Source: Brevibacterium ravenspurgense
GTDB taxonomy: Bacteria; Actinomycetota; Actinomycetes; Actinomycetales; Brevibacteriaceae
Assembly: GCF_001584615.1 (NCBI RefSeq)
Contig: NZ_LQQC01000001.1
Location: 1 to 64,000, forward strand
DNA: 64,000 nucleotides
Reading direction: 5' to 3'
Shown here: positions 15,912 through 16,578 of the stretch, piece after piece
Position numbering within the stretch: position 1 is the stretch's first letter
How the letters are laid out: the number at the start of each line of letters is the position of its first letter
Program-made: the position numbers and the translations under genes
The notes under the pieces: model-generated
The model's input: only the letters and a program-made list of their open reading frames with translations
The model's database searches: none
What the model was told of the DNA's origin: nothing

Positions 15912-16026
15912 GCGCACACCCGTTAGGAAGGAATCCGCGCTTTAGCCGCAAGGAGGCTCCCTTTAGCAAGAGAAACTCCCATTAGCAGTTGTTGCTAAGG
16001 CGCAGATTCCGGCTAAAGGGTGTGCG
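15912..16026 (+). repeat. Palindromic extragenic repeat, copy A
   Basis: A ~115-bp element starts GCGCACACCCGTTAG and ends GGCTAAAGGGTGTGCG, giving imperfect terminal inverted repeats (CACACCCGTTAGC versus CACACCCTTTAGC). Internal blocks repeat the words TTTAGC, ATTAGC and GCTAA between short direct repeats of ACTCCC. Copy A is degenerate at several sites (GTTAGG, CATTAGC). It is followed by the tag GCGAGGTGCCGGG, which also follows the other copies. There is no ORF. It is one of at least four dispersed copies in this window. Confidence 0.8.
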
Positions 16027-16070
16027 GAGGTTTTAGGGCGAGGTGCCGGGTTGGCTGTCTGTTTGCCGTT

Positions 16071-16185
16071 GCGCACACCCGTTAGCAAGGAATCCACGCT
16101 TTCGCCGCAGGGAGACTCCCGTTGGCAACAGAAACTCCCGTTAGCAGTTGTTGCTAAGGCGCAGAATCCGGCTAAAGGGTGTGCG
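16071..16185 (+). repeat. Palindromic extragenic repeat, copy B
   Basis: Second ~115-bp copy in the same orientation, 44 bp after copy A. It has the same order of blocks: CACACCCGTTAGCAAGGAAT, CGCTTTCGCCGC, GAGACTCCCGTTGGC, AACAGAAACTCCCGTTAGC, AGTTGTTGCTAAGGCGCAG and GAATCCGGCTAAAGGGTGTG. Mismatches to copy A are scattered substitutions rather than indels, so spacing is conserved. It is followed by GACGAGGTGCCGGTCTGG. Confidence 0.8.
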
Positions 16186-16279
16186 GAGGTTCTAGGACGA
16201 GGTGCCGGTCTGGCTGGGTGCAATAGGTGTGCCGTCGGGCCTGGGGTGGGGTGCCGCAAGAGTGGTTTTGGCGCCCGTT

Positions 16280-16309
16280 TTGCTGCTGAGCGCTACATGT
16301 GTGTATAGT
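16280..16309 (+). promoter_or_regulatory. Putative promoter of tRNA-Leu
   Basis: TTGCTG (16280-16285) and TATAGT (16304-16309) are spaced by 18 nt and end 16 nt before the tRNA 5' end. Both hexamers resemble the housekeeping sigma consensus. This is an inference from spacing and position only. Confidence 0.45.
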
Positions 16310-16325
16310 TTCTTTTTGCTGCTTC

Positions 16326-16409
16326 GCGCGAGTGGCGGAATTGGTAGACGCGCTGGCTTCAGGTGCCAGTGGTGGCAACATCGTGGGGGTTCAAGTCCCC
16401 CCTCGCGCA
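16326..16409 (+). tRNA. tRNA-Leu (anticodon CAG)
   Basis: The acceptor 5' strand GCGCGAG (16326-16332) pairs with CTCGCGC (16402-16408), followed by discriminator A. The anticodon arm reads CTGGC-TTCAGGT-GCCAG, giving anticodon CAG (reads CUG). A long class II variable arm and a T arm GGGGG-TTCAAGT-CCCCC are present. CCA is not encoded. The tRNA sits between repeat copies B and C and is followed by a strong terminator, so it is a single-gene transcript. Confidence 0.96.
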
Positions 16410-16416
16410 CAGATTC

Positions 16417-16452
16417 AAAGCTCGGGCATCGGAAACGATGCCCGAGCTTTTT
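16417..16452 (+). terminator. Intrinsic terminator of tRNA-Leu
   Basis: A perfect 15-bp stem (AAAGCTCGGGCATCG / CGATGCCCGAGCTTT) closed by a GAAA tetraloop and followed by TT. It lies 8 nt after the tRNA 3' end. Confidence 0.9.
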
Positions 16453-16464
16453 GCTTGCGACTGT

Positions 16465-16578
16465 GCGCACACCCGTTAGCAATGAATCCACGCTTTAGCC
16501 GTAGTCAGACTCCCGTTAGCAAGTGAAACTCCCGTTAGCAGTTGTTGCTAAGGCGCAGAATCCGGCTAAAGGGTGTGT
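16465..16578 (+). repeat. Palindromic extragenic repeat, copy C
   Basis: Third copy in the same orientation, starting GCGCACACCCGTTAGC 12 nt after the tRNA terminator and ending GGCTAAAGGGTGTG. Internal words GCTTTAGCCG, GACTCCCGTTAGC, AACTCCCGTTAGC and AGTTGTTGCTAAGGCGC are in the same order and spacing as in copies A and B. It is followed by two CGAGGTGCCGGG tags (16591-16625). Confidence 0.8.

Follow-up and report, generated by a model that had tools for sequence, protein, structure and literature searches.

Dispersed arrays of a regularly spaced motif may reflect an unrecognized DNA-binding system at gene ends in Brevibacterium

The DNA on both sides of a tRNA-Leu gene in the 64,000-nucleotide stretch analyzed here (hereafter the window, on contig C1 of 64,087 bp) carries a repeated, partly palindromic sequence, which raises the question of what kind of element this is and what keeps its copies alike. 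The usual explanation for repeats scattered between genes is that they are hairpins or selfish palindromes. The original prediction for this locus, made from the letters of the window, likewise proposed a non-autonomous mobile element or an extragenic palindromic repeat, with TTTAGC/GTTAGC words that may bind a protein. Our comparison of copies within the genome and with a sister genome favors the last part of that proposal: with a probability of roughly 0.55, the elements would be arrays of set geometry for a putative sequence-specific DNA-binding protein, belonging to a lineage-specific repeat.

The three direct copies reported near tRNA-Leu are present (15894-16052 as reference, 16053-16211 at 90% and 16447-16605 at 82%, over 159 bp). 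The tandem duplication of copies A and B takes in flanking DNA, and the element proper is about 110 bp long (Table 1). The ordered blocks described earlier were found with some point changes among copies and with constant spacing; the first word of copy A reads TTAGG and two words of copy B are mutated. Near-perfect inverted ends hold for the tRNA-Leu copies, in which CGCACACCCGTTAGC and GCTAAAGGGTGTGCG form terminal inverted repeats (93% over 15 nt in the window copies), and do not hold as a conserved feature of the family, being weaker in other copies. Within the tandem cluster at 56 kb, one unit parses with spacings 19-21-18 / 19 (centre 56579), and the remaining units have a damaged centre, AAAGCAGTACTGCTAA. 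Pattern counts are far above chance, with 11 window matches to GCTAAAGGGTGTG at up to two mismatches vs. a mean of 1.22 in shuffles, and five to GTTAGCAGTTGTTGCTAA at up to three mismatches vs. 0.01.

Table 1. Array copies in the window and neighboring genes. Spacings are in bp, and a slash stands at the array centre.
Feature	Position	Strand	Remarks
Array copy A	15915-16024	+	Six sites; spacing 19-21-19 / 18
Words of copy A	15923, 15942, 15963, 15982; 15994, 16012		First four in TTAGC direction; last two GCTAA
Array copy B	16074-16183	+	Tandem duplicate of A (period 159 bp); spacing 19-21-19 / 18
Array copy C	16468-16577	+	Downstream of tRNA-Leu; spacing 19-21-19 / 18; six of six words exact
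Single array, opposite orientation	31704-31814	-	Spacing 18 / 19-21-19; six of six words exact
Tandem cluster, four related units	56336-57056	+	Start spacings 177, 217, 217 bp; convergent gene gap
tRNA-Leu(CAG)	16326-16410	+	Between copies B and C; context, outside the element
Left neighbor gene	14773-15660	-	FhaA_N and FHA domains; context
Right neighbor gene	16701-17012	-	Trns_repr_metal domain; context

Further copies, whose absence the original prediction had named as a point against itself, are plentiful in the genome of origin (2,297,397 bp in 14 contigs). Copy A as a BLASTN query gave 99 pieces. Among the matches listed, we group these pieces and the hits of two pattern searches into about 39 clusters, and the window holds three. 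We fetched 31 stretches around clusters outside the window. The clusters at the end of contig C2 and the start of contig C12 are probably one and the same, because a single stretch of the sister genome, Brevibacterium sp. HMSC07C04, aligns to both. The genome average is about one cluster per 59 kb for the clusters listed, and no array was found at positions 1-296000 of contig C10. A link to the origin was considered and rejected, as it would rest on one array about 10 kb from dnaA (contig C12, 204 kb) and the 14 contigs are unordered.

Across all genomes searched, the element was detected in just two, both of Brevibacterium. In the search of relatives, 2 of 39 matched, namely the own genome and the sister HMSC07C04. 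An exact-pattern scan of named genomes, which may leave out records close to the own genome, matched only the sister, in two places. The centre pattern, counted across 57 genomes of the genus, stands clearly above a backwards control in the own genome alone (45 vs. 4) and slightly so in the sister (8 vs. 6); we count the sister as array-bearing because of its BLASTN matches, its centre-pattern excess being slight. Among 394 genomes of the class, a set that may not include the sister, another copy as query matched only the own genome and there in 3 places, and this search is insensitive because just those 3 places were recovered even in the genome that holds the arrays. Plasmids and phages searched by blastn with one copy, and viral contigs searched with one exact pattern, gave no match. 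Among the titles and abstract openings listed from open-licence PMC papers, none gives a description of this repeat.

The copies obey strict spacing rules. Across 334,367 bp taken from the own genome, identically oriented exact words within about 35 bp of each other lie 18 bp (65 pairs), 19 bp (68 pairs) or 21 bp (42 pairs) apart, with none of the 175 pairs at any other distance. For convergent pairs, TTAGC and then GCTAA, the most frequent distance is 12 bp, with 44 cases (a TTAGC-N7-GCTAA centre); the five outward-ordered pairs within 69 bp are each at a different distance. Allowing at most one mismatch per word, we parsed 54 arrays, of which 40 have six words, three have four or five, and eleven have seven to ten; a layout of four sites facing two is exact in 39. 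No array was parsed from reversed sequence or from one shuffle, nor with any of three alternative spacing sets. In 53 arrays, one arm has 21 bp as its second step. Of the two steps that adjoin the centre, one measures 18 and the other 19 in 53 of the 54 own-genome arrays. The sister arrays keep the 18/19/21 set, and their centre steps are 19 and 19 in six of the nine parsed, so that the 18/19 rule fails there; this is an observation against our main reading.

The repeated site has the motif C[C/G]C-N-TTAGC. In a logo built on the 318 sites of 53 arrays (one of the 54 was left out), in which the tandem copies are not independent and the word letters are partly fixed by the one-mismatch limit of the parser, T occurs at +1 in 303 sites, A at +2 in 314, G at +3 in 315 and C at +4 in 303. 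Position -4, which the parser did not select, is C in 314 of the 318; position -3 is C or G, and -1 is T, G or C with little preference except against A. The consensus is a site of about 14 bp, [A/C][C/T]NC[C/G]CNTTAGC[A/C][G/A]. There are two site subtypes, with CCC or CGC before the word, whose order differs between two classes of array.

The sister genome gives a view of what has been kept. Twelve of its 14 array stretches align at length with an array-holding stretch of the own genome, the arrays keeping their places at gene borders common to both; the other two have just about 300 bp of repeat in common with it. Substitution and gap counts were taken from nine of the 13 species pairs, since the own copy was not parsed in three (L098, L103 and the window cluster at 56 kb) and a fourth (L117) was a second match to the same sister stretch. 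In the nine pairs, the words carry 31 substitutions in 277 positions vs. 150 in 724 elsewhere in the arrays (Fisher p = 3 × 10−4), and within the motif position -4 is changed in 0 of 55 sites while -1 is changed in 27 of 55. Together with the logo, this position dependence suggests that the TTTAGC/GTTAGC words behave like protein sites, as had been proposed. Under identical scoring, the arrays have 11 gap openings in 1001 aligned columns and the flanks 50 in 944 (p = 7 × 10−8), a flank count that partly non-homologous flanks would inflate; all 13 alignments together hold 18 gap openings in 1,437 columns. Identity over aligned columns is 82% in arrays and 70% in flanks, and fixed 80-bp flanks are identical at 46% of positions, compared with 35% between intergenic pieces that are unrelated. 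Within the limits of a two-genome comparison, both the sites and their spacing are shown to be constrained.

The sister has one array upstream of tRNA-Leu, aligned without gaps, vs. two in the own genome, and one unit at the 56-kb place vs. four. Of the word positions of copy A, 6 of 30 differ in the sister. Copy C has no counterpart downstream of the tRNA in the sister (judged by eye), the place corresponding to 31704-31814 holds no array, and two of the contig C8 arrays lack a sister counterpart; another C8 array, at 195 kb, falls at sister contig ends and stands outside this presence/absence count. Because some shared arrays decay and several are without a sister counterpart, no single array looks essential.

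The position of the arrays relative to genes is also uneven. In agreement with the earlier view that no gene lies inside the element, none of the 39 listed clusters falls within a gene as called by a crude codon-usage script of our own, which missed the ISL3 transposase in stretch L100 and ignores tRNAs. For the 37 listed clusters with both neighbors visible, the same caller places 20 in convergent, 13 in same-direction and 4 in divergent gaps; counting tRNAs would make two clusters convergent (L098 and L115) and the second L104 cluster divergent, and would split the first window cluster. Array-free gaps from these stretches, which were chosen for their arrays, are convergent in 14 of 119 cases at a gap length of at least 60 bp (p = 4 × 10−7 against the 20 of 37) and in 4 of 78 at a length of at least 120 bp (p = 7 × 10−9). 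Taking the window alone and gaps of at least 100 bp, arrays are found in 2 of the 4 that separate convergent genes and in 1 of the 8 that separate divergent genes. Linkage to tRNA genes is not the rule in the family, as 7 of the 39 listed clusters adjoin a tRNA gene.

Each element presents, as a rule, six sites (range 4 to 10), 18, 19 or 21 bp apart and mostly four in one direction and two in the other, with the two groups pointing towards the central inverted pair. In the main reading, several molecules of a putative protein of this lineage would sit together on the double-stranded array in a fixed arrangement. Neither 18 nor 19 bp makes a whole number of helical turns, so the sites do not all face one side of the helix, which counts against this reading. 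Going by location, one may guess that an array acts where transcription ends, as an anchor or as a boundary. The copies may have spread and multiplied by duplication, by recombination or through a transposase since lost. A more specific version, in which a dedicated protein of a small Brevibacterium clade would assemble a complex that marks or insulates convergent gene ends genome-wide, is doubtful at present and is offered tentatively. It should also be considered that gene conversion among copies could likewise keep the sites alike, which counts against the main reading.

If this more specific version is true, it would describe a bacterial boundary-element system, so far in just two species of the genus. 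What is conserved in this family is the way copies of one motif are spaced; between the two species, the share of substituted sites runs from zero to about half depending on position, and gaps are few. A single 110-bp array would be a ready bait for finding the protein, and the family would make it possible to ask whether bacterial repeats can act at convergent gene ends as platforms with many binding sites.

The best rival is that the element is MITE-like, its two arms being fused transposon ends with sites of the TnsB/TniA/MuA type and its transposase lost or unrecognized. Tn402 ends have a layout of 4+2 sites, and the termini of TnsB/TniA/MuA-type transposons read TGT...ACA. The ends of a type V-K transposon have 5 TnsB sites on one side, with three expected on the other (PMC9527255). 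The arrays resemble such ends in their repeated inward-pointing sites at 18-21 bp in both arms, exactly 4+2 in the 39 arrays counted above. Copies that are scattered among unrelated flanking sequences and share their edges would also be expected of a MITE, as would the presence/absence differences between the two species. The arrays differ in having no cargo or genes in the 7 bp between the arms, no TGT...ACA and no recognized transposase of this kind. Their edges, judged by eye in 53 arrays, are mostly CACACCC-like (CACACCC...GGGTGTG or variants) rather than TGT.

Several further results weigh against mobility, which the original prediction had proposed as one possibility. No target-site duplication emerged from 27 loci at 169 boundary offsets (best 3-mer in 4 of 27, 4-mer in 2 of 27, 5-mer in 1 of 27), with the limit that old copies may have lost theirs, and the sister places lacking an array (31.7 kb and C8) show no clean insertion edge or empty site. 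The own genome has six rve transposase matches, of which three pass the IS3 cut-off and one the IS481 cut-off, one lies just below the latter, and one (L172) passes neither; no array of words was found at these six loci, two of which are cut by contig ends. In a casual view, arrays standing as separate ends around a gene were noticed only where an ISL3-family insertion (L100:3935-5398, contig C5) splits one array, with an 8-bp duplication, GCTTTAGC. The arrays are therefore targets of other elements, as REP sequences are too according to the title of PMC1525189. Taken together, we regard the MITE explanation as possible, if unlikely.

Membership in the REP/BIME group was rejected. These repeats of 20-40 bp carry a GTAG or CGTC tag, and the GTAG type often comes with a RAYT transposase while the CGTC type reportedly has none (PMC3733652). 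The Brevibacterium element is similar in being a high-copy extragenic palindrome, often in tandem clusters and mostly near gene ends. It differs in being about 110 bp of repeated sites with CACACCC-like edges, no tagged palindrome of that size and no RAYT: PF01797 (Y1_Tnp) has 0 matches in the own genome, against control matches in 5 of 14 genomes.

A neutral repeat of the satellite type, dispersed through ectopic recombination and kept alike by gene conversion with no bound protein, would account for the tandem numbers that vary between the species at tRNA-Leu and at 56 kb, for the copies absent from the sister, and for the 18-bp and 19-bp modules that by eye seem exchanged between species. 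It has difficulty with the range from 0 of 55 to 27 of 55 changed sites within one motif, which is hard to obtain neutrally, with gaps being rarer inside the arrays than beside them, and with the absence of spacings of 17, 20 and 22. We therefore consider it improbable.

The symmetry of the element also invites a hairpin of RNA or DNA, acting as transcript-end stabilizer, terminator or attenuator, and this would suit the location at gene ends. Eight folds were compared with shuffles, giving z values of -7.3, -3.9 and -3.9 for the window copies, -8.3 (-8.32) for the other strand of copy A, and -3.1, -3.0 (-2.97), -1.9 (-1.94) and -0.4 (-0.40) for further sequences. Six of the eight (z of -2.97 or lower) are distinctly more stable than shuffled sequence, as expected of a hairpin, a further observation against the main reading, whereas the two weakest are barely or not at all more stable, with 8 and 62 of 200 shuffles reaching their values. 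The arms do not covary: of 16 left-right site pairings, tested on 19 and 10 loci of the two array classes, one has P = 0.035 and all others exceed 0.2, and the two classes would require different pairing registers. At the gathering score, Rfam has no match to the element in the window or in 7 of the 31 further stretches, and in two flanks (L005 and L018, judged by eye) an ordinary terminator hairpin comes before the array. Despite the stable folds, a palindrome is not supported as main constraint and the hairpin as main cause is very improbable; because the arms show no covariation, the symmetry is best read as two site groups facing each other.

A known operator with similar letters was considered as well. 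The CIRCE operator of HrcA is TTAGCACTC-N9-GAGTGCTAA, and the arrays share with it TTAGC and GCTAA in inverted order. The CIRCE/HrcA assignment is rejected on array position +6, which is C in 0 of 318 sites, on the N7 centre, and on the finding of no full CIRCE in 32 stretches. Four exact half-sites (TTAGCACTC or GAGTGCTAA) occur in these stretches at L106:3957, L106:4590, L103:6178 and L103:6242, all outside arrays.

We also compared the arrays with other modular repeats by their descriptions. BOX of Streptococcus pneumoniae is dispersed and built of distinct ordered modules boxA, boxB and boxC in variable number (PMC3049150). The Brevibacterium array is likewise modular and dispersed, with ordered modules of variable number, but repeats one motif at 18/19/21 bp with a flip in orientation. 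BrickBuilt, a MITE of Porphyromonas gingivalis, has a 23-nt tandem repeat in one direction with a leader and a tail bearing inverted ends, is always intergenic and of narrow host range, and has some locations in common with the sister P. gulae (PMC4596501). It resembles our element in being intergenic, based on a short repeat, narrow in hosts and partly shared in place with a sister species; the Brevibacterium array has no leader or tail and has two converging arms and three spacings. In the descriptions available for BOX, BrickBuilt and REP/BIME, this spacing grammar does not appear.

Other sequences occur near the arrays and elsewhere in the window. A second dispersed word, CGAGGTGCCG or CGGCACCTCG, often adjoins arrays, in the window at 16039, 16198, 16592 and 57075 and also in other flanks. 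The companion words GAGGTG and CACCTC occur 183 times in intergenic and 224 times in coding DNA and are thus denser in the former (about 74.5 of 334 kb). We treat them as a separate repeat because their spacing peaks are only weak (10 at 30 bp, 5 at 29). An island at 33861-34684 contains an ORF of 177 aa (33982-34515, minus strand), which has no Pfam or NCBIfam match and a weak partial AbiD match (E = 1.1 × 10−6, residues 12-42). At the start of this ORF there is a match to abiF RNA (34507-34542, minus strand; 38 bits vs. a cut-off of 37), and the island is bracketed by direct repeats of 100 bp that start at 33861 and 34585 and are identical at 80 of 100 positions.
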